From IMG/VR virus record IMGVR_UViG_3300029258_002106, positions 1 to 44,412 of that record: a stretch of DNA of 44,412 bases; one strand, given 5' to 3'. This document shows positions 1-44,412 of this stretch, one piece after another. The position numbers and the translations under genes are program-made. Source of the stretch: a virus. Within the stretch, counting starts at the first letter, position 1. Each line of letters opens with the position of its first letter. A model generated the notes under the pieces. The model saw only the letters and a program-made list of their open reading frames with translations, was not told the origin of the DNA and made no database searches.

Positions 1-147
1 TGAAGCTTTGGGAATTGATGTCGATGACCTTCGGGAACGATTTGATCGGAACAGGACTAGCTATTATCAAACTACCTCAGCAGCAAACCATCTTACTGAA
101 GCTCACCAACGAGCAGCTATTGGGATGGAAGTTACTCAGGAAGAAGT
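1..147. repeat. Left copy of imperfect 147-bp terminal redundancy
   Basis: This stretch matches 44266-44412 at 143 of 147 positions. The differences are at 61 (C/T), 77 (T/G), 83 (G/T) and 85 (A/G). Both copies stay open in the tape-measure frame; one change is silent and the other three swap the order of two Ser/Ala residues (SAA versus AAS). The simplest reading is that a circular or circularly permuted genome was linearised by assembly and that the two ends sample slightly different co-existing variants. Confidence 0.9.
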
Positions 148-5127: not shown

Positions 5128-5892
5128 ATGGCTATCGCGGTAATGGGAGATAACTCTTATTATGCACAAGATGCTGGGGGTACTTCACATTCCTGGTCTC
5201 ACACGGTCCCGGTAGGCTGCAACTTCTTGTGGGTTTGGGTTCGGGAACGGGCGACGGGAGGACAAGCAACTAGTGTAACCTTCAATACTACGGAGACCCT
5301 TACTAAAGTTACTGGAACTTACCAAGCTCCTCCTTATGGACATTCGGGATGGTACTTGATGAACCCTACGGTCACCACAGCTAATATCGTCGTTGAACAT
5401 GCAGCTAGTGGTCGAAGCAAATATCAAGCGATCAATCTCCAAGGAGTTTCGAATGACCCAGCGAGTGTAATTTCCGATTCTGGTAAGACTTCATCAAGTT
5501 CTACTTTCTCGACGGTGAACCTTACCCTTAGTAGCGTTTCTGCAGGGGACATGGTCCTGGATATGTTTGCTAGTTGGGACAGTACGGGTTACGATTGGGA
5601 TATTATCCAGAGCCAAACTACCATCTATCAACTCAATCAATATTCTTGGATTGCTACTCTCTACTGTGCTTACAAAGAAGCTAGTGGATCATCAATTACA
5701 GTAGGCTATGGTGGCAGCCAACCTTCCTGGCAAAAGAACCTTGCTGCTGTAGCTCTCGCTCCATCAAAAGCCGGTAACCGGGGTTATATCATTGCTTTTC
5801 AACGATGGAAGAACTTCTTGGAGGATTTGAAACATGGAAATGTGCCGCCCGCCAATCTCCGAAGACAATATGGAGACTTGGTCACCATCTAA
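5128..5892 (+). CDS. Putative tail fibre/appendage protein
   Basis: This 254-residue protein is beta-rich and low in charge, with many Ser, Thr and Gly residues (SDSGKTSSSSTFSTVNLTLSSVSAGDMVLD). Such composition is typical of phage appendage beta-sandwich domains. The last 45 residues change character to basic and helical (RGYIIAFQRWKNFLEDLKHGNVPP). The terminal 59 bases are read in a second frame as the start of the next gene. There is no catalytic signature. Position among tail-tip genes supports a structural role. Confidence 0.6.
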   Translation: MAIAVMGDNSYYAQDAGGTSHSWSHTVPVGCNFLWVWVRERATGGQATSVTFNTTETLTKVTGTYQAPPYGHSGWYLMNPTVTTANIVVEHAASGRSKYQAINLQGVSNDPASVISDSGKTSSSSTFSTVNLTLSSVSAGDMVLDMFASWDSTGYDWDIIQSQTTIYQLNQYSWIATLYCAYKEASGSSITVGYGGSQPSWQKNLAAVALAPSKAGNRGYIIAFQRWKNFLEDLKHGNVPPANLRRQYGDLVTI

Positions 5893-6586
5893 AGACCTAG
5901 GCCCAATCTGGATTTTAGGAAATGGCCCGAGCTTGGCAAAGACACCCCTGGATGAGTTGATCGGGCAGCCAAGCTTTGCAATGAACCGAATCCACTTGCT
6001 TTATCCAAAGGTAGAGTGGCGTCCCACTTATTACTTATGTATTGATGATGTTGGTCACTCAGATGTCTACAGTGATCTGAAGTACCATGCAGACTTAGGT
6101 TACCCTTGCTTCTTCAAAGCTTCTTATGCAAATGAGCTTGAGATGAGAAGGATCAAGAGGTGGCCAACCAATATCACTTATCTATCTAATTGCAGACTTC
6201 ACCTGCATGATCTAGAGAATACACCCGAGATTCCCCAAAGCTGGCATTTGCCTCAACTTTGTGGCTTTGGTACTGGACTCTCGGTAATGTTGCAAATTGC
6301 AGTGATGATGGGCTACGATCCTCTCATCTTACTCGGATGTGATCTAGGCTTTGTCGACCAAGAAAGCCCAGACCACCCCGATCCTAATCACTTTACTCCT
6401 AATTATGGGACGACCTGTGATTGGCCTCTAAGCACCCGAGATGCTACTCTTATCCATGCCCATAAGGTAGCTCAACACTCCTGTGATCAATACGGAGTTA
6501 CAATCCTGAATGCCAGCCTCGGGGGCATACTTGAGGTACACCAACGAATTGACTTTCAGGAGGCTTTGAAATGCACGAAGCAGTGA
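5834..6586 (+). CDS. GT42/DUF115-like putative glycosyltransferase, copy 1
   Basis: This 250-residue protein starts at an ATG with GGAGG nine bases upstream, which fixes a 59-base overlap with the preceding gene. Near the N-terminus it has ILGNGPSL, then AMNRIHLLYP and WRPTYYLCIDD. In the middle, FGTGLSVMLQIAVMMGYDPLILLGCDLGF reads like the nucleotide-sugar-binding half of GT42 sialyltransferases or of DUF115/MptE-like proteins. The late part has DPNHFTPNYG and a conserved His-Ala/His-Lys segment (LIHAHKVAQHSCDQYGV). Those families transfer activated sugars or act on related nucleotide substrates. Two paralogues lie at 6875-7576 and 32073-32735. The role is inferred: glycosylation of virion proteins or a host-surface molecule late in infection. 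Confidence 0.65.
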   Translation: MEMCRPPISEDNMETWSPSKDLGPIWILGNGPSLAKTPLDELIGQPSFAMNRIHLLYPKVEWRPTYYLCIDDVGHSDVYSDLKYHADLGYPCFFKASYANELEMRRIKRWPTNITYLSNCRLHLHDLENTPEIPQSWHLPQLCGFGTGLSVMLQIAVMMGYDPLILLGCDLGFVDQESPDHPDPNHFTPNYGTTCDWPLSTRDATLIHAHKVAQHSCDQYGVTILNASLGGILEVHQRIDFQEALKCTKQ

Positions 6587-6882
6587 AGAGATACATTGGA
6601 CAGAAATATGAAACAGAGATTGTTAGTTTCCGTTTACTTGATTTCAGGTATAGTCCAGAGAAAGCTTGCGTTACTCTAATCTTCATGGTGATTGAACATA
6701 GCCACCGAGAAAGAAAAGAGAACAGCAGTCGTCAAATTGAAATGATCCTTTGGAGGGACAAGCCTTCAATGGCCGAGAACTCCTCGGCTCATTGGGGTGA
6801 CCTTGATCCTGAGATTGAGAAAGTTCTTCGAGACTATGCAGAGGGCTTTATCGACCAAGCTGAGGAGTTCTTCTATGGCTAG
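6571..6882 (+). CDS. Hypothetical protein between two glycosyltransferase-like genes
   Basis: This 103-residue protein is not recognised. It starts at an ATG preceded by AGGAGG and overlaps both neighbours (16 and 8 bases), so it is co-translated with them. It appears as a small alpha/beta domain (YETEIVSFRLLDFRYSPEKACVTLIFMVIE) followed by an acidic helical tail (DLDPEIEKVLRDYAEGFIDQ). No cysteine clusters, membrane segments or catalytic motifs are visible. Its position suggests a partner of the glycosyltransferase-like proteins, but that is only contextual. Confidence 0.6.
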   Translation: MHEAVKRYIGQKYETEIVSFRLLDFRYSPEKACVTLIFMVIEHSHRERKENSSRQIEMILWRDKPSMAENSSAHWGDLDPEIEKVLRDYAEGFIDQAEEFFYG

Positions 6883-7576
6883 GGCTTTTGTTATCGGGAA
6901 TGGTACTAGTCTAAAGGATACCCCCCTCCACCTACTAAAAGATGAAGTAACCTTCGCGATGAACCGGATACACCTGATCTATCCCGAGACTGATTGGCGG
7001 CCCACCTATTGGGTTTACACAGACATTCAGGATATGCCGGATGATCAATGGATCAGTGACTGCCTCTTCCATTTAGAGCAGGATTATCATTCATTCATCT
7101 GGTCCAACCTATGTACTATGATTGAACTGAAGCGAGGAGCTTGGGATTATTGGAAACCCAATGTTACCTGGATACCCATCTGCACCGAACATGTAAGCAT
7201 GGACATCGCTTCACCCCGGCGGCCTAATTCATGGCATCTACCTACCCTTTGTAAGTTTGGGACAGGGTCTGCCATAGCACTCCAACTGGCCGTATTGAAA
7301 GGATACAATCCAATCTATGTAGTGGGCATGGACCTAGGTTTCCAGCCCAAGGAAGAGGGAGGCGATGATCCCAACCACTTTTCCAAAGACTACCTAGTTT
7401 GGGATATGCACTGTCAGTTTCAGGTTGATGCTAACCGTAAGAATGCAACACACCACCACGCACATACAATGGCTTTGAAGGCTTGCCAGGAACGCGGGAT
7501 CAAAATCTTCAATGCAACCATCGGGGGAAATTTAGAGGTCTACCCCCGAGTCAATTTAGAGGAGGTAGTATGTTAG
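6875..7576 (+). CDS. GT42/DUF115-like putative glycosyltransferase, copy 2
   Basis: The start at 6875 is chosen because GAGGAG precedes it by seven bases and the protein then opens directly with the motif strand (MARAFVIGNGTSL). The 233-residue product parallels copy 1 along its length: GNGTSL, FAMNRIHLIYP, WRPTYWVYTD, SWHLPTLCKFGTGSAIALQLA, VVGMDLGF, DDPNHFSKDY, HHHAHTMALKACQERGIKIFNATIGG. The pair therefore arose by tandem duplication with the 103-residue gene caught between them. Similar chemistry to copy 1 is inferred, with possibly different donor or acceptor specificity. Confidence 0.65.
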   Translation: MARAFVIGNGTSLKDTPLHLLKDEVTFAMNRIHLIYPETDWRPTYWVYTDIQDMPDDQWISDCLFHLEQDYHSFIWSNLCTMIELKRGAWDYWKPNVTWIPICTEHVSMDIASPRRPNSWHLPTLCKFGTGSAIALQLAVLKGYNPIYVVGMDLGFQPKEEGGDDPNHFSKDYLVWDMHCQFQVDANRKNATHHHAHTMALKACQERGIKIFNATIGGNLEVYPRVNLEEVVC

Positions 7577-13343: not shown

Positions 13344-15725
13344 CTACTCCCATAAGTCATCATTTCCAAAGAGCGCTTCCATATCGGCAGCGAGTTGATC
13401 AGGTACTTCCCATTCATCATCAACCTCTTTTGGAGGAAGGGGTTGAAGGTCTCCCGATGAGCAGGGGAAGATTTCAACTGGATTGTAGTTCTCATTGGTT
13501 GTTTCCGTATGAGCCCAGGTTTTCCCTAGGATCAACTCCCCCACGATTGGTAGGGCTCCCCAAAGAGGTAAGTCTTTGAGGGGAGTTTGAGAAAGCGAGT
13601 TGAAACCATATCTCACAGCTTCAACCACCAGGTCTACTTCATCGGGGTAAACATCCAGTAAGGTAGAGTCGTGAACTCCAAAGAGGGGAAGAGTCTTTGC
13701 TTGATGCTGGTGGAGATAGTCATCAGTAGCTCGGAAGATTTGAAGAGTGATATCCGAAGCCAAGCTCTGGATCGGGGTATTGACTGCTTTCCTTCGAACC
13801 CCTCCTTCACCCTCACTAAAAGCCACTGGAGATAAGTCTCGCTGTCTCCCAAAGAGTGTAGTAGACCAAAGAGTGCGGATAGCTTCTGAGCCAGTATTAT
13901 CAAGCCAGGTGTTCAATCCTTTGAAACTTCCTAGCACTGCGGAAAGGATGTGCTCGACCTCTTGAACGGAAGCTCCGGTTCGTCGAGCTAGTCCTTCTGG
14001 TGATCCGCCGTAGAGTAATCCAAAGGTTACCCCCTTAGACTTCTTCCTTTGTAAAGCGGAGACTTGATCTTCTGGGACTTGGTAAGCCATAGCAGCAATG
14101 GCTTGGTGAGGGTCTTCTTTGAGAATGAACTCGGCAAAGAGAGGGTCATTGGAGAGGAGAGCTGCTACCCTCAGCTCTGCTTGGGATAAGTCAATCAATC
14201 CAATGAACCCTTTCTCAAAGCGGGAGATGAATAAGGTCTTCACGGGTCCGGTCCGCTTGACCTGTTGGAGATTGGGGTCAGCACAGGAAAGCCGCCCAGT
14301 ACGAGTCCCTGCTAACTTCATCCTAGGATGTAACCGCCCATCCCCAGCATCTTCCATAAAGCCTGTGTAGGATTGAAGGAACTCTAGCTCCTTGGTTTGT
14401 TCTCGGAGCCCAAGGATTTGACCTACAACTGAGTAATTAGGCTGGAGCTCAAGCAACACATCCTCAGCTACGGAGGGTCTGCCCGTCGGGGTTTTCTTTC
14501 TCAAAGGTACATCCTGTTCCTTGAGGAAATCAGCCACTTGCATTGGGCTATTCCAGTTGACCTCATACTGAGCTAGGCTATTCAACTTTGCTCTGGTGTT
14601 CTCTACTCCTTGTTCGTACCGGGGAAGTAATTCCTCCAGCTTTTCTTTATCAATCTCTACTCCTTGCCATCTCATCCTAGCAACTTTGGGCACCAAAGCA
14701 TTCAACAAAAGTTGAGCAGTACACTGCTCAGGTAAGAGCTGAAAGATTTCACTCGTACTGAAAAGGTCTTCGGCTAGGTAATCCAAAGACTGGGTTCCTC
14801 CAAAGGAGCGAGGGCCCGGGCGGTCAGTCTTCATTGTGGATAAGTGCTTCAATGATAATACTGGCTCCCCTAAGACATGCCACATCAACATGGTATCATA
14901 AGAAGCATTCTCCCAGGCTTCCCCAGTGTGCACATCCAGATGATAAAGGTCAAAAGCGAAGTTATGACCAATCAGCTGTGTCTCTTCTAGGATCGAACGA
15001 AGTTCTTTGAGCTGGCCTTGTGTTGGGTCTAAGATCACATAAGCAGTGCCATCACCTTCCCGGAGCAAACCTATTCGGGTGATACTTGAATGATAAGGAT
15101 CGAGGGCATCTTCACCAGCCGTTTCAATATCCAAGTAGACCCTTGGAGTTGGCCGGAAGTCTGAGGGAGTGTGAAGAACTACAATCGAAGGACTTTCTGG
15201 ATCGGGTAACTCAAAGAACCTTTGCAAATCCCTAGCAAGCATCGGTCCCTTGAGTGGGTCACGAGCCACTGCTGCGAAGTGAAAAGTGGGAACTACATAC
15301 GATTCAATCTCAGGATTGTAGAAGAAAGTCCCATGATCATCCCTCAGTTTTTGAAAACCAGGGCAGAGAGCTTTAGCCGGAACGGCTCCTAAAGCAAGTA
15401 CCCTAGGAATACGGTCTTGATAATCGAGCATCGCTTTTAGCTCCTGGACCATTCCAGGATAGTACTTCCTTATCAACTTCACTCCAGGGTTCTTTCCGGG
15501 CTTCACTGGTTCTTTGACTAAGTTGGTGACATAGACATTCTCGGGTGCTGCACCAAGGATGTTCTTCAGCATCCTATGAGAGCTTGCCCCAAAAGGTTCA
15601 TTAGCTCGACCTTTAGGCCGACGAGTTGATGGGGCTATTCCTACAAAAGCAAAGGGAGCTGAGAGTCCCCCCTTCCCTGGAAGTGCATTCTCATTAGTCG
15701 GTTCAGGATCAAGGTATAACTTCAT
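13344..15725 (-). CDS. DNA polymerase A with N-terminal uracil-DNA-glycosylase-like domain
   Basis: Residues about 20-165 of this 793-residue protein resemble the UDG superfamily: FVGIAPSTRRPKG, VYVTNLVKEPVKPG, RVLALGAVPAKAL and PTFHFAAVARDP. The Fe-S cysteines and classic catalytic acid are not evident, so activity is uncertain. Residues about 195-330 are a 3'-5' exonuclease (DIET at 199, GHNFAFD at 253); a clear third-motif Asp was not found. Residues about 345-735 are the family A polymerase: motif A IDLSQAELR (Asp512), motif B RKKSKGVTFGLLYG (Lys564, Phe568, Tyr572), and motif C VHDST, where the usual Glu after Asp686 is Ser687. A similar UDG-PolA arrangement is known in SPO1-type phages. 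The C-terminus is acidic, ending DDLWE. Confidence 0.92.
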   Translation of the reverse strand: MKLYLDPEPTNENALPGKGGLSAPFAFVGIAPSTRRPKGRANEPFGASSHRMLKNILGAAPENVYVTNLVKEPVKPGKNPGVKLIRKYYPGMVQELKAMLDYQDRIPRVLALGAVPAKALCPGFQKLRDDHGTFFYNPEIESYVVPTFHFAAVARDPLKGPMLARDLQRFFELPDPESPSIVVLHTPSDFRPTPRVYLDIETAGEDALDPYHSSITRIGLLREGDGTAYVILDPTQGQLKELRSILEETQLIGHNFAFDLYHLDVHTGEAWENASYDTMLMWHVLGEPVLSLKHLSTMKTDRPGPRSFGGTQSLDYLAEDLFSTSEIFQLLPEQCTAQLLLNALVPKVARMRWQGVEIDKEKLEELLPRYEQGVENTRAKLNSLAQYEVNWNSPMQVADFLKEQDVPLRKKTPTGRPSVAEDVLLELQPNYSVVGQILGLREQTKELEFLQSYTGFMEDAGDGRLHPRMKLAGTRTGRLSCADPNLQQVKRTGPVKTLFISRFEKGFIGLIDLSQAELRVAALLSNDPLFAEFILKEDPHQAIAAMAYQVPEDQVSALQRKKSKGVTFGLLYGGSPEGLARRTGASVQEVEHILSAVLGSFKGLNTWLDNTGSEAIRTLWSTTLFGRQRDLSPVAFSEGEGGVRRKAVNTPIQSLASDITLQIFRATDDYLHQHQAKTLPLFGVHDSTLLDVYPDEVDLVVEAVRYGFNSLSQTPLKDLPLWGALPIVGELILGKTWAHTETTNENYNPVEIFPCSSGDLQPLPPKEVDDEWEVPDQLAADMEALFGNDDLWE

Positions 15726-16426
15726 ACGAAACTCCTTACTTTGTCGAGTAGCTCAAGATTATCCAACTGGTAATAGTCATAAACGAAACTGTTTCCAGTG
15801 ACGAAGATATTATGGTGAATATGAGCGAAGTGCTTGAAAACACTAGAAACTAGAGCATAGCGATCCATCTCGTCAATTTGAGAGTAAGTATACTTTTGGG
15901 GATTTCTCTTTCTCAATCGAGAGAGGCAGGTCCAAGTAGGTAGAAGAAGCATGAATTGGACATCGATGCGTTTCCAAGGATTTTGCCACCCGCGAAGTTC
16001 AAGATGATGAATAAGCTCACCTATTCTCCAGACATGATTTCGAAGATAATTTTGAGGAGACCGCTCATTCCGACGAAAATCCTCATTTCTTATCCCTTCA
16101 TAAACCCATTGAGAAAGAGCCCAACGATCTAGGACACAAACGGGGTCAGGAGAAACGAGAGCATGCATCATCTGATAATCATCCTTGATAAGAGAGTAGA
16201 GATGAGACCTCCATTCATAAGCCCTGACTTCACTCCACCTGAACTGCTCATAGGGAGGGCGCGGGATCAACTGGAACTGCTTATAAAGACGGAGTTGTTT
16301 TATCAAGGAGGTCTTGCCACTGCCAGCTGGCCCTTCGAAGATGATTATCCTTTTCTGACAAGTTGCAGGTCGGTTGCGCAACTGGGACATAGTAGGCCAA
16401 AAGTCGAGTTGTTGATGGTCATCCAT
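15722..16426 (-). CDS. P-loop (deoxy)nucleotide kinase, thymidylate-kinase-like
   Basis: The start at 16426 is a compromise: no strong ribosome binding site precedes any candidate ATG, and ATG 16390 is also possible. The protein (about 234 residues) has a Walker A, FEGPAGSGKTS, followed by the DR motif VLDRWALSQWVYEG typical of thymidylate/deoxynucleoside kinases. A LID-like Arg-rich stretch (CLSRLRKRNPQKYTYSQIDEMDRY) comes next. The reaction would be phosphoryl transfer from ATP to a dNMP. Beside a dCMP-type thymidylate-synthase homologue it could serve as the dNMP kinase that lifts a modified dCMP to the diphosphate, as T4 gene 1 does. It overlaps the polymerase start (ATGA). Confidence 0.75.
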   Translation of the reverse strand: MDDHQQLDFWPTMSQLRNRPATCQKRIIIFEGPAGSGKTSLIKQLRLYKQFQLIPRPPYEQFRWSEVRAYEWRSHLYSLIKDDYQMMHALVSPDPVCVLDRWALSQWVYEGIRNEDFRRNERSPQNYLRNHVWRIGELIHHLELRGWQNPWKRIDVQFMLLLPTWTCLSRLRKRNPQKYTYSQIDEMDRYALVSSVFKHFAHIHHNIFVTGNSFVYDYYQLDNLELLDKVRSFV

Positions 16427-16563
16427 GGTTCCAACTTTCCGAAGTGCTCTTCCCAGAGCAGTTCTAGGGTTTTCTTGCTTTGATGAGCAGAGTGGACCTG
16501 TCCGCAACCATCACAGCAAAGCTCATATTTGTCGTACACTTTCCAGTCCGGTTCCTTTATCAT
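16345..16563 (-). CDS. Zn-ribbon miniprotein between primase and kinase
   Basis: This 72-residue protein has two cysteine pairs (CCDGCGQVH and LLCPSCATDL) about 45 residues apart, so a zinc ribbon with a helical insertion is likely. Its ATG overlaps the primase stop (ATGA), implying coupled translation, and its 3' end overlaps the kinase frame by 82 bases. The function is unknown. Confidence 0.6.
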   Translation of the reverse strand: MIKEPDWKVYDKYELCCDGCGQVHSAHQSKKTLELLWEEHFGKLEPWMTINNSTFGLLCPSCATDLQLVRKG

Positions 16564-17351
16564 TTTGTGTGCCTTCTTCCATAGTATTCTCGCAACAAAT
16601 GGTACACTTGCCCTCGGCTCAAAACTTCCCTTTTCATGATGGGGGTTTCATCGGGGTCTTTACCATCGGGAATATATTCCACCCCTACTAACATCAAGCC
16701 TCGGTTGAAGGCATAGTCGAGAGTTCTCATCCAAGATTTCAACAGGTCTTTCTTCTGCCAAACATCTCCATCAGGACAAAGGAGCAGGTAATGTCTTTTG
16801 ACCCTTTCTAGCACTGCTTCACTGATAAGTCCAAAGCAGCAAAGATCATAAGGGGTAAGCACATCATAAGGACCTTCAACAATTCGAATGGGTGAAGAAG
16901 GCTTGGTAGGAAAAGTCTTTGGAGCTCCAGGCCAAGCAATTCCAACTTCTCCGATGACTCGACTCTTTCCGGGTCTCCTAAGAACTACTCCGATAGGGTC
17001 TTCTTCTCCCATCTCATAAGTGTAGAAAGCATCCCAATCCTCTCCATCATGGGTAAGATGGTATCGACCCAAACCAGATCGCCTTGAGGATGCTGGGCCC
17101 GGGAAAAGCAAAGGAATTTGAACTTCTCCTTGATCAAACTCCTCTAGGTTGAACTCACCTCCGAAGATGCCAAGCTCAAGGAATTGCTTGGTGCTTAGTC
17201 TTCCTTTAGCCTTACACCGAAAGCAGTGGTAAAACCCAGTAGTGATATTGATAGAGAAGTGGGCTTTGAATAGGTTGTTGGGAGAGTCGCCACAAAAGGG
17301 GCATCGAAGCCAAAGCTCTCCTCGTTCTACTTGGCCAATTTTACCTGACAT
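16560..17351 (-). CDS. DnaG-type DNA primase (CHC2 zinc finger + Toprim)
   Basis: The ATG at 17351 has GGAG eight bases upstream and gives 263 residues, shorter than cellular DnaG. Residues 17-46 form the zinc motif (CPFCGDSP, then CFRCKAKG). The Toprim domain shows IRIVEGPYDVLTPYD and LLLCPDGDVW with a later PDGKDPDE, the acidic metal-binding residues. It synthesises RNA primers for replication and would work with the DnaB-like helicase two genes upstream. No helicase-binding domain is apparent, so it is a compact phage-type primase. Confidence 0.87.
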   Translation of the reverse strand: MSGKIGQVERGELWLRCPFCGDSPNNLFKAHFSINITTGFYHCFRCKAKGRLSTKQFLELGIFGGEFNLEEFDQGEVQIPLLFPGPASSRRSGLGRYHLTHDGEDWDAFYTYEMGEEDPIGVVLRRPGKSRVIGEVGIAWPGAPKTFPTKPSSPIRIVEGPYDVLTPYDLCCFGLISEAVLERVKRHYLLLCPDGDVWQKKDLLKSWMRTLDYAFNRGLMLVGVEYIPDGKDPDETPIMKREVLSRGQVYHLLREYYGRRHTK

Positions 17352-17353
17352 TA

Positions 17354-18028
17354 TCAAAACTCCAGTAGAGCTCTCAGGCAATCGCCTATTTCCATAGTCT
17401 GAATTGTTTTATGACGAGGGAGAGCTAAGGAAATAGTGCGACTCAGTGAAGAGTTATCAAATACAAATCTATGGGGGTAGCCTTTTGTTTGAGGTACTTC
17501 AATGAATAACCAATGCTCAATGTAAGAACTCCATTGGATAAGAAACTCCATCGGAGAGGGTACATGCTCCAGAACATGGCTCATAGTGAGGAGGTGATAC
17601 TTATTCCGCAGTTTAGTAGGGTCAGAAGTTACCCAAGGACTTTGGGCTGCGGTTAGCACATCAAGATCAAATCCTTCAGCTAAAAGCCCCCATTCGTTGA
17701 GTAGCTTTACTAATAACCCATCCTGTGCTCCGATATCAAGAGCAGTCTCTACATCTTTGAAAGCTCCTAGATTTCTCAACCAGACAGCTTGGTTGAGTGC
17801 TCTCTTTTTGATCTGAACTAGCCCATAGCCTTGGCGCTGCCAAGGATGTGGATGGACGTGTTTTCGGTAGGCTCCCGAAGAGTACCAATCCTCTGGAGTA
17901 GGTTCATTATGAAAGACTATCCCACAGGTTGTGCATCGGAAGTAGTTTAGGGCTTTTCCATATCGACGATCACGATTGTAGTTCTCTTCAAAAGTTCCTT
18001 GTCCTATATTACAGTTTGGGCATATCAT
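17354..18028 (-). CDS. SAM-dependent methyltransferase with N-terminal zinc ribbon
   Basis: The start at 18028 overlaps the helicase stop (TAATG), with GGAGG seven bases upstream; the protein has 224 residues. The N-terminus is a zinc ribbon (ICPNCNIG, then FRCTTCGIVFHN) and the body is a class I methyltransferase with motif I ALDIGAQDGLLVKLL and a post-motif SHVLEHVPSPMEFL, as in Methyltransf_23-type enzymes. These generally methylate small molecules or sugars rather than DNA bases. Its position inside the replication operon raises the possibility that it acts on a nucleotide or base modification, but nothing in the sequence proves a substrate. Confidence 0.8.
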   Translation of the reverse strand: MICPNCNIGQGTFEENYNRDRRYGKALNYFRCTTCGIVFHNEPTPEDWYSSGAYRKHVHPHPWQRQGYGLVQIKKRALNQAVWLRNLGAFKDVETALDIGAQDGLLVKLLNEWGLLAEGFDLDVLTAAQSPWVTSDPTKLRNKYHLLTMSHVLEHVPSPMEFLIQWSSYIEHWLFIEVPQTKGYPHRFVFDNSSLSRTISLALPRHKTIQTMEIGDCLRALLEF

Positions 18029-19131
18029 TACCAATCCTCCAAGTCATCGGCCCAAGGGTCCTGTTGAAGTTGAGCAGCAAACCATCTAAGCTCAGCATAA
18101 TCATAATCAAAAGAGATTTCCTGGTCTGGTATTCCAAAACGGTTCTTCGCAATATTCAAGGAGACTGGTCTCATTGAGCCCCCAGTACCAACTCTTCGTG
18201 TCATACCAATGACTACATCACTATACCAAGCTTTAGCCCAAGCTTCTGCTACGGAGGTAATACTCAAATGTCGGTCATTTCTTCTGGGTTGTGATGCAGT
18301 CAATACCAACTTACACCTGCCCTTTATCGTTACCAACTTTCGATAGATTTCCTCCAGTGCAAATCTTCTTTCATTGTCCATCCCAGCTGCAAGCACATCG
18401 GGAGAGTCATAGATAATTACCCTATCCGGGTCTGGGTCTTCTTCCATGCGCTCGAGAATGTCATCCACTGGAGTTTGACCACAGATCATTCGATCAGTAG
18501 ATAAGAACTCGGTCCTTTGAAGAATAGGCTTCATTCGATACATCATCATCTTCATTGGGATTTCTGTTTCAAAGAACCAGATTGAGGAGGCAGAATTCGA
18601 CTTCCTTATCTCCTCCATAATTGTCAAAAACATCGAGGTCTTCCCATCACCTGGCCGAGCGATGAGAGTGAATATTCCTTGGTAGCATCCACCTAGCACT
18701 TCATCCATTGGGGCAAAACCACTTCTCCATTTCACTAAAGTGGAGTCTACATCATAAGCTTCGGAAAGGTCCTGTTCGGCGAATTCAACTAGATCATCCT
18801 TACTGGTTACCCAAGCATGAAGAAGCCCTAGCTCATTCAGGTACTTTGAGAAGGGCATCGACTCTCTCTTCAATTCCAATTCATCAGTGACAATTGAGGC
18901 AGCTAAGGTTTTGAACTCCTCCAATGAACCCAGGCCATTCTCCGCTCCGGACTCTAGCATTTCCATTAGTTGCTCTTCCTCAAGACCCAACTCAACTTGA
19001 GCCCCGGCAACTCCTTTAGTAGAAAGTGCCGAGAGTAGATCGATCTGAGGTAAGTACCTGTGAAGAACTCGTGGAATGCGAGGACCGTGGCGACTAGCTA
19101 GGAATGCGAGTCTGGGTAAGTGAGATAACAT
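18028..19131 (-). CDS. DnaB-like replicative helicase
   Basis: This 367-residue protein has an N-terminal helical region of about 130 residues, followed by a RecA-type ATPase: LIARPGDGKTSMFL (Walker A, residues about 157-170), FFETEIPMKMMMYRM, DRVIIYDSPDVL (Walker B), and TASQPRRNDRHLS (sensor). A conserved end-region SLNIAKNRFGIPD matches the DnaB arginine-finger neighbourhood. It unwinds DNA at the fork and lies with primase and polymerase. The C-terminus is acidic and ends DDLEDW, like the SSB tail. GAGGAG lies eight bases before the ATG. Confidence 0.87.
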   Translation of the reverse strand: MLSHLPRLAFLASRHGPRIPRVLHRYLPQIDLLSALSTKGVAGAQVELGLEEEQLMEMLESGAENGLGSLEEFKTLAASIVTDELELKRESMPFSKYLNELGLLHAWVTSKDDLVEFAEQDLSEAYDVDSTLVKWRSGFAPMDEVLGGCYQGIFTLIARPGDGKTSMFLTIMEEIRKSNSASSIWFFETEIPMKMMMYRMKPILQRTEFLSTDRMICGQTPVDDILERMEEDPDPDRVIIYDSPDVLAAGMDNERRFALEEIYRKLVTIKGRCKLVLTASQPRRNDRHLSITSVAEAWAKAWYSDVVIGMTRRVGTGGSMRPVSLNIAKNRFGIPDQEISFDYDYAELRWFAAQLQQDPWADDLEDW

Positions 19132-19646
19132 TCGCCGGCTCCTCTAGCAACTATATAGGATAGTATCAAAGCATCTCGCAAGTCATCCCGTAACTCTCCT
19201 GCAGGCCAGTCATGATGGCACTCACTCATATTGCAGAAGCTTTCCCAAACATCCTCTTTGGTTTTGCCTCCAATCATCTTCCGGATAAGGGAAGGGTCAA
19301 TGAAAACAACTGGATGACCTTGAGTTTGAGCTCTGGCTGTAAAGTAGCCAGCGAAGAACGATTGAGTTACTACTTGAATTTTACGGGACTTGAAGTGGCC
19401 GATGTATTTTGAGTAATCGATCCCTACCGCCACTCCTTTATAAGGTTGCATACTTGCGAGGATTGAAGCTGTGAGCCGATAGATTTCCTTAGGGGCAGCT
19501 CGTTGACCAATAGCGATGGCATCCTTTTTGGTCCAGTGAAAGATTTCATCGACACTCGCAAAGTAGATATTGCCATCTATCTGTTTCCAGTAGCCTAACA
19601 CCACTGCCCCATGGCGAAGGGCGGGATCAAAGCCGAGTGTCCTCAT
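19098..19646 (-). CDS. RuvC-like Holliday-junction resolvase / RNase H-fold nuclease
   Basis: This protein of 182 residues begins RTLGFDPALRHGAVVLGYW, the first acidic strand of RuvC-like nucleases. GVAVGIDYSKYIGH and QSFFAGYFTARA follow, with a C-terminal DDLRDALILSYIVARG matching the late Asp motif (DAxxxA). It would cleave branched DNA during recombination or before packaging. The ATG overlaps the upstream stop (TGATG), and the 3' end overlaps the helicase start by 34 bases. Confidence 0.8.
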   Translation of the reverse strand: MRTLGFDPALRHGAVVLGYWKQIDGNIYFASVDEIFHWTKKDAIAIGQRAAPKEIYRLTASILASMQPYKGVAVGIDYSKYIGHFKSRKIQVVTQSFFAGYFTARAQTQGHPVVFIDPSLIRKMIGGKTKEDVWESFCNMSECHHDWPAGELRDDLRDALILSYIVARGAGECYLTYPDSHS

Positions 19647-20368
19647 CAGTATATCTCCTCATCAATGAAGGAATGAAAGGAGATAACAAAGTGAACCAAA
19701 GCTCCAGGTTGAATATCCAAACCTACAGCTACTCTCTCCTGCATCTTCCTGGCGAACCAGATATCACTCAGCCAAAAGTTCTGGAAATCACAGGAACGTT
19801 GCAAATAGAACCAGAGTAACGTTGCAACTTGGTTTACCTCTCGGATCATTCCCTGCCATCCAATTGAGCAAGGAATTCTAGTCGGCATTGAAGAACGAAG
19901 GGCATCAAGCTGACGGTACATAGGCCAATAAGCTCTACGGCTATCTCGGTTCTTTTCCAAAGTAGCAAACAAGGCATCATACCACCCAACAAGTCTTTCT
20001 CGGTAGGTATAACCAAAGTGTTCGCCTTCCATTACCGTTTTCAAAGCAGGGTTCAACTCATCTGCGGCAGGGAGAGTCAAAGCACTGTCAGGGAATAGCC
20101 GATCTTGAACCTCATAGGAAAGCCACTCCTCCATTTCATCCGGATGCTCAACATACAAAGGCAAGTCATGATCCTGACCAAAGCTGATCAGATCGGGGAT
20201 ACTCTCAGGAATGCCCCCTAAGATTGCATAAGTGTAACCAAAAGCTTCTCGGCCATCAAGGCTCAGACCTACCTTATTCTGAACCCTGGTGCTTACTACC
20301 GAAGGAGACTTGTAGAGGTCTCTTTGGATTTCACTGTAAGCTTGCTCAAGGTTTTCAAAAACTCTCAT
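19646..20368 (-). CDS. Thymidylate-synthase-fold enzyme, predicted dCMP-specific (dCMP hydroxymethylase or methylase)
   Basis: The start at 20368 has GGAGG six bases upstream (240 residues). Family features are visible: GEHFGYTYRERL, the dimer-arginine region SRRAY, catalytic-type PC at Cys167 (RIPCSIGW), the phosphate-binding QRSCD at 190-194, and FHSF near the end. Counting from QRSCD, the residue aligned with Escherichia coli Asn177 (eight residues after Asp) is Asp202, followed by Ile as in the family. Asp here is the hallmark of T4 dCMP hydroxymethylase, and mutation of Asn to Asp switches thymidylate synthase to dCMP. I therefore infer 5-substitution of dCMP using methylene-tetrahydrofolate. 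Hydroxymethylase and methylase cannot be told apart by eye. Confidence 0.75.
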   Translation of the reverse strand: MRVFENLEQAYSEIQRDLYKSPSVVSTRVQNKVGLSLDGREAFGYTYAILGGIPESIPDLISFGQDHDLPLYVEHPDEMEEWLSYEVQDRLFPDSALTLPAADELNPALKTVMEGEHFGYTYRERLVGWYDALFATLEKNRDSRRAYWPMYRQLDALRSSMPTRIPCSIGWQGMIREVNQVATLLWFYLQRSCDFQNFWLSDIWFARKMQERVAVGLDIQPGALVHFVISFHSFIDEEIY

Positions 20369-20498
20369 TAGTTCCTCCATGATGGGCAACCTAACAGCTG
20401 GCCAGCCTAGGTATAGTAACGGCTGCTGGGTCTTGGTCTATACCACCACAAGGTCACTGGTTTGTTGCCCGGGTACTCTTGACCTTTGTTCCCATTGG
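20369..20498 (-). other. 130-bp intergenic region upstream of the dCMP-enzyme gene
   Basis: This is one of the few gaps in the leftward unit. It holds a perfect 10-bp palindrome (GCTGGCCAGC, 20397-20406) and a widely spaced inverted repeat GGGCAAC / GTTGCCC (about 20384 and 20464). The ribosome binding site GGAGG of the next gene lies within it. No convincing -35/-10 pair or T-tract was seen, so mRNA folding or processing is more likely than a promoter. Confidence 0.4.
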
Positions 20499-21026
20499 TT
20501 ATCCTTGTCCGTGACCATTAGGAGTCCTCTCAGGAACATCCGTCTTGGTAGGAGTAGGAGTTGCATCTTCATCGGGTGTGTTAGTAGGAGTAGGCGTCTC
20601 GGTCACTTCTTCAGTGGGAGTATCCGTAGGCGTCGGAGTATCCGTAGGTGTAGCGGTGGCCGTGAAGGTAGGAGTCGGATCGCTGTCGCGATATCTGATG
20701 GAGACATGACTAATCTCGTGCTTGTCTCCTGAGCATACCTCGAAAGACGAAGGCCCCACCACTGGTGGTACAATTTCAAGGTATGCAACCGTCGTGGCGG
20801 CCTTGACACAGGCCTCAACGGCTGTTTGCCCTTCTGCAACCTGTACTGTGTAGCATAATCCTGACAGTCCATCATATTTTACCCAATCTCCCGTATGGGG
20901 GCAAGTCTCTTGTCCGTTCATCGGAATGAGTGACACTCCTTGGTTGCTCGCCACATTAGCAAAGAAGGCAAGAACCAGCAAAGCTGCGACCACTATCATC
21001 CCTGAAATTTCTAGGTGCTTTCTCAT
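20499..21026 (-). CDS. Secreted or membrane-anchored protein with Thr-Pro repeat tail
   Basis: This 175-residue protein has an N-terminal hydrophobic segment (GMIVVAALLVLAFFANVA) after a basic start, reading as a signal peptide or membrane anchor. A small cysteine-containing domain (about residues 35-110, with CPHTGDW, LCYTV, CVKAA and VCSGDK) may form disulfides outside the cell. The tail is a long Thr/Pro/Asp/Glu repeat (TPTDTPTPTDTPTEE and similar). Such TPT linkers are frequent in surface proteins of Chloroflexota, which is my only hint of host. It lies between the pyrophosphatase and the dCMP enzyme. Superinfection exclusion is one speculative role. Confidence 0.7.
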   Translation of the reverse strand: MRKHLEISGMIVVAALLVLAFFANVASNQGVSLIPMNGQETCPHTGDWVKYDGLSGLCYTVQVAEGQTAVEACVKAATTVAYLEIVPPVVGPSSFEVCSGDKHEISHVSIRYRDSDPTPTFTATATPTDTPTPTDTPTEEVTETPTPTNTPDEDATPTPTKTDVPERTPNGHGQG

Positions 21027-21027
21027 C

Positions 21028-21660
21028 TCAATACTTACTCCTTAGTCTAAATTGCAGTACTTCGTCCTTAGCGATAAAATACCGCCAGAACTCATCAAAG
21101 CTCTCAAAGGAATGAACCACCAGATACAAAACAGTGGCGAACTTATCCAATAAAACTTCTGCTCCAGAGAAGTAGATATCTTGAGCTTGGTTCATCCAAG
21201 CCCTATTCCGGAAGGTATCGGCAAGCTCTCCTGCTAGCATCGTGGTGACATGCCCTAAGACTGATGCAGTCCATTGGGAATTGTAGTAGAGGCCTGCGGA
21301 CCTTTGAGGGGTTTGGTCATGGCATATCTTAGCTAAGTCCTTCATGGAACAGATATCAGCATCTAGCAAGGGGATAACCATCAAGTAGTTCAATCCATCA
21401 ATCAGCTCTTCTTTCCAATGAGCTTCCTCCTTAGCTAGGATACTCTCAGCAAATTCCTCCAATACCCGGAACATTATCATCCTTACCAATTCCTGCCCTT
21501 TTGCAGTAGCAAAACGGATGGTTGGTTGGAGATAACCATTCCGACTTTCGATGGAAGCGAACTCTGAGAAAGTATTCCACCGTCGAACTATCATGTCATA
21601 CCAAACCTGTTCACTAGAGGTAACAGTTTCATGGTCAGGCCAAAAGTCATGTATGTTCAT
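21028..21660 (-). CDS. All-alpha NTP pyrophosphatase (dimeric dUTPase/dCTPase-like)
   Basis: The ATG at 21660 is preceded by GGAGAGGCGG and gives 210 residues. The metal-binding signature of the all-alpha NTP-PPase superfamily is clear: EEFAE (Glu69, Glu72), then EELID (Glu85, Asp88) after HWK. The later ELADTFRNRAWMNQ and the C-terminal SFDEFWRYFIAKDEVLQFRLRSKY match the layout of dimeric dUTPases/dCTPases. The reaction is dNTP to dNMP plus pyrophosphate. Next to a dCMP-type thymidylate-synthase homologue, dCTP removal is attractive (as with T4 gp56), giving dCMP for modification and excluding plain cytosine. dUTP hydrolysis is equally possible from sequence. Two operator-like repeats sit just upstream. 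Confidence 0.78.
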   Translation of the reverse strand: MNIHDFWPDHETVTSSEQVWYDMIVRRWNTFSEFASIESRNGYLQPTIRFATAKGQELVRMIMFRVLEEFAESILAKEEAHWKEELIDGLNYLMVIPLLDADICSMKDLAKICHDQTPQRSAGLYYNSQWTASVLGHVTTMLAGELADTFRNRAWMNQAQDIYFSGAEVLLDKFATVLYLVVHSFESFDEFWRYFIAKDEVLQFRLRSKY

Positions 21661-21680
21661 CCGCCTCTCCAACAAAATGG

Positions 21681-21722
21681 GGGTGATCACCCTAAGTGAT
21701 AGAGCGATCACCCTTAGTGATC
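21681..21722 (-). promoter_or_regulatory. Tandem operator-like palindromic repeats before the pyrophosphatase gene
   Basis: Two near-identical 16-mers, GATCACCCTAAGTGAT (21685-21700) and GATCACCCTTAGTGAT (21706-21721), repeat with a period of exactly 21 bases, about two helical turns. Each is itself a dyad (ATCAC, five bases, GTGAT), and GGGTGATCACCC (21681-21692) is a perfect palindrome. They lie between the SSB stop and the pyrophosphatase ribosome binding site. Binding of a dimeric repressor or an RNA structure controlling translation are both possible. Confidence 0.6.
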
Positions 21723-21727
21723 AACGA

Positions 21728-22291
21728 TTACCAATCTTCGCCGGAAGACTCTTCAGTCTGTTTCTCTTCCTTGGGCTCCTGGCTCTCTTCACCACTACGG
21801 CCTTGGTCTCTTTCCAAGGATGATTGGTAGAACTCCTGGCTCAACTCTTCAAGGGTGGAGTCGGGATAGGTCAGCCCATCAGGGATAGGAATAGGTTTTG
21901 GGCTGGGGAGTACATTGTAAGAAGTATCGATACCCTTACCATCTCGGATGATAGTAATCCCATTACCTTCTGGGCCAAGCAAGTCATAACCCTCAGCTAA
22001 AAGCTGGAGGATTGACTTCACCACTGTCTTCGGAACGACGATGGGAGCAACCTTAGTTTTCCATTCATCGCTGAGCTCTTGTGTTGAGACCCCTGCAACT
22101 ACACCTAAGATGATGTAGCGAGAGCGAGTCTTACCTCGAAAAACCCGAGTAGTTTCAACAAAGAAATGATCAGAAGTTTCTTTCTGGGGTACTAAGCGGA
22201 CCCGGGTCTTGCCTTCCTTGATGAAGAAGAAGGGACCACTGGTAGTCTCGCTTAGTTGGTCGAGTAAACCTTGCCACTTATTGCCGTCCAT
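21728..22291 (-). CDS. Single-stranded DNA-binding protein
   Basis: This 187-residue protein has an OB-fold-like body (PFFFIKEGKTRVRLVPQ, RYIILGVVAG) ending with ITIIRDGKGIDTSYNVLPSP, a strand pattern seen in T4 gp32-like and related phage SSBs. A Pro-rich linker (PSPKPIPIPDG) follows. The last 25 residues are strongly acidic and end in GEDW, the type of acidic aromatic tail SSBs use to contact partners. It would coat the lagging strand and recruit polymerase or helicase. AAGGAG lies nine bases before the ATG, and 14 bases overlap the upstream gene. Confidence 0.8.
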   Translation of the reverse strand: MDGNKWQGLLDQLSETTSGPFFFIKEGKTRVRLVPQKETSDHFFVETTRVFRGKTRSRYIILGVVAGVSTQELSDEWKTKVAPIVVPKTVVKSILQLLAEGYDLLGPEGNGITIIRDGKGIDTSYNVLPSPKPIPIPDGLTYPDSTLEELSQEFYQSSLERDQGRSGEESQEPKEEKQTEESSGEDW

Positions 22292-22649
22292 GTTTTATTC
22301 TCCTTTTCTTGAAATATGCTATCACTCTCATTCGCAACTTACGAATGCGGCCAAGGGGTCCTGCAAAGTAGTTTGCCCAGTAAGCTTGACTCATGCGATA
22401 GTAACGGCGATAAACTTGCATTCCATAATCTAGAGCTTGGTACCGAGCTAGAAAGCAGCGGCGGGTCAAATCTCCATCATCCGACCCAGGCCAATTAGGG
22501 GCGATAGGAACTTTCCGAACAACCCCTCGATGGAAGTGGTGGTGAGGCCACTTGAATTTTACAGTGAGACCATCTTTAGCTATCTTGAAGGTTGCCTCCC
22601 AAAATGCATTCTTTTCATCGAAAGATTTCAATCCGTAAAAGCGACTCAT
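22278..22649 (-). CDS. Hypothetical basic protein upstream of SSB
   Basis: This 123-residue protein is not recognised. It is rich in aromatic and basic residues, with a His cluster (KWPHHHFHRGVV), a tyrosine-rich helix (RYQALDYGMQVYRRYYRMSQAYW) and a Lys/Arg-rich end (RIRKLRMRVIAYFKKRRIKHGRQ). Nucleic-acid binding is plausible. The ATG overlaps the upstream stop (ATGA), with GGAGG nine bases before it, and the end overlaps the SSB start by 14 bases. Confidence 0.6.
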   Translation of the reverse strand: MSRFYGLKSFDEKNAFWEATFKIAKDGLTVKFKWPHHHFHRGVVRKVPIAPNWPGSDDGDLTRRCFLARYQALDYGMQVYRRYYRMSQAYWANYFAGPLGRIRKLRMRVIAYFKKRRIKHGRQ

Positions 22650-23584
22650 AGAGATAGACCTCCTAACAAATTGATGGCTGACTTGATCATTGAAGAGGAC
22701 TTCGACAGGGGCTTCGCTAAGGAACGATCTTCCTTCTGCATGCGCCCTTGGTTGATTGCTCCTGTTACTGCATTTGCAACATCGATAGTGTGCAGGTCAT
22801 CCCGGGAATTAGCCATCGCCTCAAATTGTGCAACTAGATTGGAGTGGTACCATTTCGGCACATTCTGAAATGCTGAGAGATTGTCTTGGACAAAAAGCGG
22901 AACCCTCTCTTGAGGGGTGGTGTCTTCTCTCATCTCTCTCAGGACATTAGCAAAACGATCAGCTCCAGAAGGAGTACCGATCATCGGACCCCGAACAGCG
23001 GCGGGGTTATCTCCAATGATTACATTACTGCCCCAGAGTTCCTCAACTAAGCGATCAGAATTCCAGGTGGCATGGTTCATCTTCACATCTCCTAAGCCGA
23101 GAAGTTCAGAGACCAGTCCATTAGAGCAGATCAATCGGTAAAGCCCTCGCTGAAAGCGAATACCCTTACCTGGACGGATAGCTGAAGTGACGATCATGGC
23201 TTCAAAAAGCCCTCGGTCACCGTCAGGCCACATATCCAAGTCCCAAGTGATTGGGTCAATCAAGGGATTAGTTTCTGGATTGCGCCAGATGGTGTATAGA
23301 TGAAGACCACCGCGGGATAGGATGATATCCTCAAGCTCGAAGCCTTTATCAAGCATGGGAGCCATCACATCATAGTGGTCAACGAATTGAAAGCGAGTTG
23401 ATGTGGGACCCAGCTTATAAACTTTCTCACCACGATGAAACTCATGGCGCTGGACATGCTCACCTTCGTAGATGCGCGAGATAACCTCGCCCAGTTCTAC
23501 TCGATTACCATCTTCGAGGACGGTGACTGGGCGGGTCTCTTCGCTAACGATAACTCGTTCTTTCTGGGGTGCTTGGTCGGACAT
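22646..23584 (-). CDS. DUF932-like phage protein
   Basis: The core of this 312-residue protein contains SAIRPGKGIRFQRGLYRLICSNGLVSE, which resembles the central motif of DUF932 proteins of phages and plasmids (a beta strand, Arg, Val/Ile, Cys-Ser/Asn-Asn/Gly). The C-terminal 100 residues are helical. The biochemical role of the family is not established; in phages it often lies near SSB and recombination genes, as it does here. AAGGAG lies eight bases before the ATG. Confidence 0.6.
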   Translation of the reverse strand: MSDQAPQKERVIVSEETRPVTVLEDGNRVELGEVISRIYEGEHVQRHEFHRGEKVYKLGPTSTRFQFVDHYDVMAPMLDKGFELEDIILSRGGLHLYTIWRNPETNPLIDPITWDLDMWPDGDRGLFEAMIVTSAIRPGKGIRFQRGLYRLICSNGLVSELLGLGDVKMNHATWNSDRLVEELWGSNVIIGDNPAAVRGPMIGTPSGADRFANVLREMREDTTPQERVPLFVQDNLSAFQNVPKWYHSNLVAQFEAMANSRDDLHTIDVANAVTGAINQGRMQKEDRSLAKPLSKSSSMIKSAINLLGGLSL

Positions 23585-42768: not shown

Positions 42769-44412
42769 TATTAGGTTTATTGTCAATGCAGTCAATAAAA
42801 CAAAAGGCCCTTTTGAAGAGACTGAGCGCCAGCTAAAAGAGCTGCGTGAAGAAACCAAGTTGCAAGAAAAGCAATTTGAGGAATTGCGAAAACAGGGCCA
42901 ACTAGTTGGGATGGCTCTTCTGGGAGTTTCTGCGGCCGGAGGGGCTCTCATCCTCAGGTCTACTCAGTTATCTGCACGGGTTCAAACTTTAGGAGTAATC
43001 TTAGAACGAGCAGGAGTCCAAGCTGGATATTCTCAAAGAGAACTAGAACAGTATGAAGCTGGAGTAATGGCTTTGGGGATCACTACTCAAGCTGCTCGTC
43101 AATCATTACTTCAGATGATCCAAGCACAAATGGATCTGGATGATGCTAGTAGACTAGCTCGAGTAGCACAGAATGCGGCAGTCGTTGCCAACATCAATTC
43201 CTCGGAAGCATTTATGAGGTTGGTCACTGCTATCCAACGAGGCGAGACAGAGATGCTTCGTACCATGGGTATCGTAGTGAACTTTGGTGATGCTTACAAA
43301 CAAGCTGCCGAAGCTTCTGATAGAACTACTACTTCCCTAACCGAACAGGAGAAGATGCAAATTAGGGTCAACACAGTTGTTCAATCTGCAGCCCCCATCT
43401 CTGATGCTTACTCTTCAGCTATGGAAACTGCCGGTAAACAAACTCTATCTATGGACCGGTTGCTAGAAGAGATGAGCCTTACTTTAGGAGATGAGGTTCT
43501 CCCGGCATATACCGGTGTAGTTACTGGGGTTTATGATGCTTTGAAGTCCTTTGCAGCATTAGACCCCGTTACCAAATCAACGGCAGCAAATCTGGTGGTT
43601 TACGGTACAGGGATTACTGGGGTAGCTGGGGGTTTGACGATGGTCATTTCCAAACTTCCAGCACTACAAGCGGGCTTTCAAGCCCTGGGGATTACTTTGT
43701 CTGCTGGAAGTGGAGGTATTCTGGCAGTTTTGGGAGCACTTGCTGCTTTGGTTACGGCACTTCTCGCTCATAAGAACGCAGTGAATAGTAATACTTCAGA
43801 AATGCAGAATTGGTTTGAGACTCAAGGATATGTAATTGATGGAGTAGATCGGCTGTTGGTAGCGAACATGGACTTCAAGAATGCTCTTAGGGATTCTAAG
43901 GGTGAACTGATCAGTATGACCGATGCAACCAAGCTCAATCTACAAGCATTGATGGATGCAGGCTATACTTTCAAGATTGTAGGAAACACCCTCAAAATCT
44001 ATGATAAAGACATGCACTTGGTCACTGGGAGTATCAAAGAGGAAGCTGATGCCGTAGAAGCTGCTACTCTCGCTGAGTTAGAACATATCCGACAACTGGA
44101 GAACTTCGAAACCCAAGCTAAGATTACAGCAGCGGAGATAGTTGCTATGGGAGATGCCGCCGCTGACTTAGGTCCAAGGCTTGAGGAAGGCGCCGGTCAA
44201 GTTGCTGGTTCCATAGAAGTTATTGAACAGCAGACGGATGCTCTTGAAGCTAACAGGGAGGCCTATGAAGCTTTGGGAATTGATGTCGATGACCTTCGGG
44301 AACGATTTGATCGGAACAGGACTAGTTATTATCAAACTACCGCAGCATCGAACCATCTTACTGAAGCTCACCAACGAGCAGCTATTGGGATGGAAGTTAC
44401 TCAGGAAGAAGT
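42761..44412 (+). CDS. Tape measure protein, N-terminal part (continues at the window's left end)
   Basis: The ATG at 42761 starts a frame that stays open to the end of the window (550 codons, no stop) and joins base 2 in register through the 147-bp redundancy. It opens PDIRFIVNAVNKTKGPFEETE with a long coiled-coil-like helix (RQLKELREETKLQEKQFEEL). A first hydrophobic stretch follows (LVGMALLGVSAAGGALIL). A second lies at about residues 278-337 (YGTGITGVAGGLTMVI, GSGGILAVLGALAALVTALL), as expected for tape measures that insert in the host membrane. The whole protein is about 805 residues. Confidence 0.87.
   Translation, partial: MPDIRFIVNAVNKTKGPFEETERQLKELREETKLQEKQFEELRKQGQLVGMALLGVSAAGGALILRSTQLSARVQTLGVILERAGVQAGYSQRELEQYEAGVMALGITTQAARQSLLQMIQAQMDLDDASRLARVAQNAAVVANINSSEAFMRLVTAIQRGETEMLRTMGIVVNFGDAYKQAAEASDRTTTSLTEQEKMQIRVNTVVQSAAPISDAYSSAMETAGKQTLSMDRLLEEMSLTLGDEVLPAYTGVVTGVYDALKSFAALDPVTKSTAANLVVYGTGITGVAGGLTMVISKLPALQAGFQALGITLSAGSGGILAVLGALAALVTALLAHKNAVNSNTSEMQNWFETQGYVIDGVDRLLVANMDFKNALRDSKGELISMTDATKLNLQALMDAGYTFKIVGNTLKIYDKDMHLVTGSIKEEADAVEAATLAELEHIRQLENFETQAKITAAEIVAMGDAAADLGPRLEEGAGQVAGSIEVIEQQTDALEANREAYEALGIDVDDLRERFDRNRTSYYQTTAASNHLTEAHQRAAIGMEVTQEE
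44266..44412. repeat. Right copy of imperfect 147-bp terminal redundancy
   Basis: This matches bases 1-147 with four substitutions. It lies wholly inside the tape measure gene, so it is not a packaging-site repeat or a transposon footprint. An artefact of joining circular reads, from a mixed population, is the likeliest source. Confidence 0.9.

Follow-up and report, generated by a model that had tools for sequence, protein, structure and literature searches.

A phage replication operon predicted to modify cytosine nucleotides before DNA synthesis

Introduction

Does the replication operon of a tailed phage encode enzymes that modify cytosine as a nucleotide, before it enters the DNA? The question is raised by the IMG/VR virus record IMGVR_UViG_3300029258_002106, which carries terminase, portal, tail, and endolysin genes and all 44,412 bases of which were analyzed (the window). 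A first-pass annotation had read a pyrophosphatase, a dCMP-type thymidylate synthase (TS) homologue, and a thymidylate-kinase-like protein in this operon as exactly the enzyme set with which T4 replaces cytosine by 5-hydroxymethylcytosine, and had added a polymerase with a UDG-like domain and a methyltransferase as further candidates. Our analysis makes C5 modification of dCMP ahead of replication highly probable, whatever the resulting base; the whole reading, a pre-replication cytosine pathway in which the product is 5-hydroxymethyl-dCMP, we consider evenly balanced.

Results

The three enzyme genes, all within one replication operon, are the following.

21028-21660, minus strand: all-alpha nucleoside triphosphate (NTP) pyrophosphatase, predicted dCTP/dUTP pyrophosphatase, T4 gp56-like (open reading frame (ORF) 21028-21711, ATG at 21660)
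19646-20368, minus strand: dCMP-type TS-superfamily enzyme, predicted to modify dCMP at C5 (ORF 19646-20389, ATGs at 20380 and 20368)
15722-16426, minus strand: thymidylate-kinase-like P-loop deoxynucleoside monophosphate (dNMP) kinase, predicted kinase for modified dCMP (ORF 15722-16507, ATG at 16426)

They share the operon but are not adjacent: the kinase gene, on the side of the family A DNA polymerase (PolA), is separated from the TS gene by 3.1 kb. The genes named in the first-pass annotation are real and its starts are sensible: the ORFs were confirmed, and family profiles made only from relatives, without the window, recovered all three proteins. These profiles found the TS homologue (41 relatives; E=3e-34), the pyrophosphatase (E=9e-16, among 1,971 ORFs), and the kinase (profile made from kinases encoded near dCMP-type TS genes; E=3.6e-11). 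For the TS homologue, the ATG at 20368 (MRVFEN) agrees with the starts of relatives (MRIYSN/MRLF), the ATG at 20380 being also possible, and the pyrophosphatase start at 21660 (MNIHDFWP) corresponds to MNIRDYWP of the relative L054. Because the proteins are very diverged, domain libraries saw the TS homologue (phrog_160, E=2.5e-8; TIGR03283, E=1.7e-8; PF00303, E=3e-4, below the Pfam cut-off) and the kinase (phrog_761 "thymidylate kinase," E=1.3e-18) weakly, and the pyrophosphatase alone matched no relevant family in Pfam, PHROG, or NCBIfam.

The TS homologue carries the residue expected of an enzyme that selects dCMP. Position 177 of TS decides between dUMP and dCMP, and an Asp there marks metagenome contigs enriched in cytosine modification (PMC8670742); in the T4 dCMP hydroxymethylase, Asp179 and Cys148 are essential (PMC6400193). 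In the numbering of the 244-residue window protein, Asp206 occupies the position of Asn177 in E. coli TS (EcTS) and of Asp179 in T4, and the residue is Asp in all aligned relatives as well. The catalytic residues Glu45 (EcTS Glu58), Arg148, Cys171, Arg195, Ser196, and His236 are kept, and the folate-contact Asp198 (EcTS Asp169, T4 Asp171) is retained, the motif reading RSCD in the window and RSxD in its clade. The AF2 model (pLDDT 82) matched the TS superfamily in Foldseek with E values down to 6e-13. These comparisons predict a dCMP-directed enzyme that modifies C5.

In a tree of TS-superfamily enzymes, the window protein belongs to a clade of 26 rows (support 96/94) with the motif R-x-P-C-[ST], which takes in the cultured phages Serbin and Muddy and Gordonia phages. 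The C-terminal tail of TS is missing: 5 residues follow the HSFI motif, compared with 54 after its equivalent in E. coli ThyA. The homologues of the two nearest relatives, L054 (48% identity) and L055 (41%), end in the same way (EIY), and 5-34 residues follow the His motif across the clade, compared with 60 in the Achromobacter 83-24 enzyme.

Relatives were collected by tblastn of annotated phages with the TS homologue (15 records) and by alignment-based scans of IMG/VR (first 31 loci, later 21, with some overlap). Scans that used the TS homologue or the pyrophosphatase as a single protein gave no matches, nor did a scan with the pyrophosphatase alignment or a near-DNA search of phages with the window. 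The 42 resulting loci span a wide range of phages but are mutually related and hence are not independent trials. The pyrophosphatase family occurs together with the dCMP-type TS in 33 of the 42, at a distance of up to ∼4.1 kb in 32, and a kinase was recognized in 19, some loci being short fragments; some of those without a recognized kinase may use host kinases. The order SSB-pyrophosphatase-TS-RuvC-DnaB-primase-kinase-PolA, including the UDG-like start of PolA, is kept in L054 and L055, and L054 also keeps the exonuclease. Among the window, L054, and L055, identity has fallen to 24-49% for the three enzymes, yet they stay together.

Many relatives have a second, very diverged TS-like protein beside the dCMP-type TS, annotated as hypothetical or "pyrimidine hmase synthase" and matched in some cases by the TS profile (E ∼1e-2 to 3e-4). 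Neither the window nor the L054 stretch has it; in the following loci it is perhaps a partner subunit or the enzyme of a second modification step.

L055, 3482-4357: second TS-like protein
L047, 5177-5986: second TS-like protein
L002, 6260-7318: second TS-like protein
L008, 4487-5548: second TS-like protein
L044, 15372-16142: second TS-like protein

The pyrophosphatase family profile matched T4 gp56 (8e-6) and the dUTPase_2 protein of Serbin (5e-28), and a PDB profile search returned all-alpha NTP pyrophosphatases (SSO3215, 1.6e-5; HisE). The metal-binding motifs ExxE (residues 69-72) and ExxD (85-88) are invariant in the family, and the window protein is 42% identical to that of L054 and 38% to that of L055. 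The predicted model was all-helical (pLDDT 82); its fold search gave no PDB match at E<=0.001 and generic helical bundles only, and thus the assignment rests on the profiles. A separate trimeric dUTPase was found in 19 of the 42 loci (PF00692 was confirmed for two), and all 19 also have the pyrophosphatase. Since phages with their own trimeric dUTPase need no second enzyme for dUTP alone, this co-occurrence points to an enzyme that is not simply a dUTPase, with dCTP as the predicted substrate.

The kinase has a P-loop (GPAGSGKTS) and a DRxxxSxxVY motif. A profile of the window, L054, and L055 kinases found the RB69 kinase (E=3.8e-9), and T4 gp1 was matched by none of three kinase profiles. That the window kinase works like gp1 is something we infer from its gene company.

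Other genes of the operon are listed below; the DnaB, RuvC-like, and primase-like genes are syntenic in L054 and L055.

13344-15725, minus strand: PolA with UDG-like N-terminal domain (PF00476, E=5e-62; PF03167, E=2e-8 at residues 17-159)
16560-17381, minus strand: primase-like protein, CHC2 zinc finger (phrog_19847, E=1e-10)
17354-18034, minus strand: S-adenosylmethionine-dependent methyltransferase with zinc-ribbon N terminus, optional tailoring candidate only (PF13489, E=1e-10)
18028-19131, minus strand: DnaB-like helicase (PF03796, E=3e-7)
19098-19646, minus strand: RuvC-like resolvase, constant neighbor of the TS gene (phrog_159, E=0.0019)
21728-22291, minus strand: single-strand DNA-binding protein (SSB), first gene of the syntenic block (phrog_1192, E=1e-12; 43% identity with L054)

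The UDG-PolA and the methyltransferase are thus both in the operon, as had been annotated, and neither is required for the pathway. The methyltransferase gave no phage match at E<=1e-3, and neither L054 nor L055 has it between DnaB and primase; we therefore dropped it as a core part. The UDG-PolA is present in L013, L009, and Serbin and not in L006, Muddy, and L034. The usual GE[AG]PG motif of its UDG-superfamily domain reads GIAPS by eye, and the domain is perhaps not an active glycosylase.

The ends of the window (1-147 and 44266-44412) overlap by 147 bases, of which 143 are identical, and the overlap, which lies inside a probable tape-measure gene, codes for one protein. The contig is therefore probably a nearly complete circular assembly with strain variation, and gene absences in it are fairly informative.

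Several other genes were observed. The gene at 20499-21026, between those of the pyrophosphatase and the TS homologue, encodes a protein that is predicted to be membrane-anchored and has a tail of TPTPTDTPTPT-type repeats. Tails of this kind are frequent in Chloroflexota, which gives a weak hint at the host. A DUF932-like protein (22646-23584; PF06067, E=2e-4) is encoded upstream of the SSB gene and kept in L054 and L055. In the late-gene region, two adjoining MptE-like/DUF115 paralogues (5834-6586 and 6797-7576; PF01973, E ∼1e-5) are possible glycosyltransferases, the second matching the sialyltransferase family phrog_4603 (E=2e-7). In one group of relatives, the proteins flanking the dCMP-type TS are one that resembles C5-cytosine methyltransferases (PF00145, E=2e-24) and one that resembles asparagine synthases (PF00733, E=6e-37), both candidates for further cytosine tailoring.

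L018, 8800-10026: PF00145/PF00733 flanking protein
L035, 8478-9689: PF00145/PF00733 flanking protein
L018, 10970-12361: PF00145/PF00733 flanking protein

Discussion

In the pathway that we propose, the pyrophosphatase would cleave dCTP, and probably dUTP as well, to the monophosphate; this would both bar plain dCTP from the phage DNA and supply dCMP. The TS-superfamily enzyme would recognize dCMP through Asp206 and, with methylene-tetrahydrofolate as the donor, add a one-carbon unit at C5. The product would most likely be 5-hydroxymethyl-dCMP, there being no C-terminal lid to keep water out. The thymidylate-kinase-like protein would then phosphorylate the modified dCMP, and a host kinase would carry out the last phosphorylation. 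The family A polymerase of the phage would have to accept and incorporate modified dCTP, so that cytosine in the virion DNA would be replaced. A folate-dependent route to 5-hydroxymethyl-dCMP is favored because the folate-contact Asp is kept and the C-terminal tail of TS is missing.

Several observations weigh against this scheme. The published signature proposed for hydroxymethylation is an acidic residue, Asp or Glu, at position −3 from the catalytic Cys (T4 Asp145, the proposed water activator) together with Ser94 (Thr in some enzymes). The first of these positions holds Arg168 in the window protein and Arg in all 26 clade rows; elsewhere it is Asp in T4, MilA, and AXL3 (the last read from sequence), Glu in RB69-type enzymes, and Leu in TS. 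The second holds Tyr124 (His in the Serbin group), before a conserved Tyr126. The top Foldseek matches were 9iqu and 9iqc, 2025 entries of the FAD-linked phage dCMP hydroxylase AfhB, slightly above MilA and TS, and the T4 hydroxymethylase ranked lower than all of these in structure and profile searches. In the tree, the branch of the window TS is long (1.91), and no measured product was found for any member of its clade; a literature search for DNA data on Serbin-like phages found none. The third pyrophosphatase motif is altered in the window, L054, and L055 (KDEVLQFR for KxxxNxxR), and the kinase resembles that of RB69, not T4 gp1. Because both Asp145 and Ser94 are replaced here, we stop short of counting the protein as a full member of the T4-type hydroxymethylases.

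Hydroxylation of the RB69 type, which the first-pass annotation did not consider, is a serious rival. In this route, a flavin-dependent enzyme would make 5-hydroxy-dCMP and an RB69-like kinase would phosphorylate it, giving DNA with 5-hydroxycytosine, perhaps glycosylated. The 5-hodCMP synthase of RB69 is a TS-superfamily enzyme, which a 2026 paper describes as making 5-hydroxy-dCMP (PMC13390438). The structures that head the Foldseek results are described as AfhB with dCMP and FAD, RB69ORF048c has the same aligned sequence as these entries, and the window kinase is nearest to kinases beside RB69-type genes. However, the best PDB profile match of the TS homologue, to 9iqu/9iqc (1.8e-17), is a tie with MilA, and the enzymes of RB69, PTm1, ORM_20, and phiM9 form a clade of their own (99/98), separate from that of the window. 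Members of the RB69 clade have Glu at the −3 position and Asn at the folate-contact position (RSQN/RSNN), whereas the window has Arg and Asp, and the retained pterin-contact Asp would argue against FAD as the cofactor. The replication operon showed no arabinose or sugar-nucleotide genes. We consider this route improbable.

A 5-methyl-dCMP route as in Xp12, in which a dCMP methylase would lead to DNA with 5-methylcytosine, also seems unlikely. According to Liu and Santi 1992, in the account given by PMC8670742, a single replacement, Asn to Asp at position 177/229, is enough to make TS a dCMP methylase. A non-acidic −3 residue is also the condition in TS, which has Leu there, and the folate-contact Asp is kept. 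The clade, however, lacks the C-terminal tail of TS, and the tail is required by TS for its hydride-transfer step; in addition, no phage dihydrofolate reductase was seen among the ORFs read in the replication region.

There is a small chance that enzymes with the R-x-P-C-[ST] motif make up a third class of TS-fold proteins that modify dCMP, apart from the T4 and RB69 types, and that their product is a cytosine base not yet described; such a base would then occur in many phages that are in culture already and whose annotation gives an ordinary thymidylate synthase. With Arg in place of Asp/Glu, the exocyclic methylene might be trapped by another nucleophile, or the final step might differ.

The weakest alternative is an ordinary thymidylate supply by a dUTPase, a TS, and a dTMP kinase, with no modified base; public annotations of relatives name just these enzymes and no other TS or dUTPase gene was found in the window, but we give this very little weight because every clade row has Asp at position 177, the TS tail is missing, and relatives have trimeric dUTPase (19 loci) or ThyX or ThyA genes separate from the dCMP-type gene. 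The dCMP-type TS coexists with ThyX in L006 and MW202455 and with a true ThyA next door in Huwbert (gene 68, which groups with E. coli ThyA, 100/99), so in these phages it is not the source of dTMP.

Returning to the preferred reading, we find that the gene set is a variant of the T4-like logic in which the cytosine enzyme lacks the known signature of the T4 enzyme. The window shares with the HMdCTP pathway of T4 (gp56 dCTPase-dUTPase, gp42, gp1) its three-step plan, and its pyrophosphatase profile matches gp56. Like gp42, the TS homologue has the dCMP-selecting Asp, the catalytic Cys and Glu, the folate-contact Asp, and no TS tail, but it has Arg for Asp145 and Tyr for Ser94 and is ∼19% identical. 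Unlike in T4, the kinase is not a gp1 homologue, the polymerase is of family A, and no β-glucosyltransferase-like gene was recognized in the window; in T4, gene 56 lies 8.7 kb from the TS-homologue gene. The claim that the operon holds exactly the T4 set is thus not supported. What stands of the proposed cytosine-modification pathway is that a TS homologue directed at dCMP, a pyrophosphatase like gp56, and a protein resembling dNMP kinases have stayed together in phages that are very diverged; 5-hydroxymethylcytosine itself is a product that we infer.

Other known systems resemble the window in part. In the RB69/ORM_20/phiM9 module (5-hydroxy-dCMP synthase and thymidylate kinase), a TS-fold dCMP enzyme likewise lies near a kinase, the one closest to that of the window, and the TS clade and its signature residues differ as described. 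MilA, nearly the best profile match, is a TS-superfamily enzyme of cytidine nucleotides but a CMP hydroxymethylase of an antibiotic pathway. The cassettes of Serbin, Muddy, Gordonia phages, Zuko, and MW202455 hold tmk, dUTPase_2 or an NTP pyrophosphatase, a TS-like paralogue, a "thymidylate synthase," often dCMP deaminase, and PolA. With the window they share the dCMP-type clade, the pyrophosphatase superfamily, the kinase, and PolA (in Serbin also with the UDG-like domain), whereas no TS-like paralogue or dCMP deaminase was detected in the window or the L054 stretch. Stenotrophomonas phage AXL3 likewise has a D177-type TS, a tmk-like protein, an NTP pyrophosphatase, and a methyltransferase in one cluster, although its TS has an acidic −3 residue and its pyrophosphatase is of the PRA-PH type. 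AXL3, which also has a deaminase, offers a precedent for the proposed pathway: its DNA resisted all 35 tested enzymes with G/C in their sites (PMC7504290).

TS homologues similar to that of Serbin occur in 103 records of one phage collection at E<=1e-20, including Gordonia, Mycobacterium, Serratia, and Pseudomonas phages, and are mostly annotated as thymidylate synthase. If our reading is correct, replacement of cytosine at the nucleotide level would be much commoner than one would judge from the T-even phages, and the modified base would affect the restriction, CRISPR targeting, sequencing, and cloning of such phages. The change of Asp to Arg would offer a test of what decides among hydroxymethyl, hydroxyl, and methyl chemistry on the TS fold, and the cultured members of the clade, Serbin, Muddy, and the Gordonia phages, make the question testable now.

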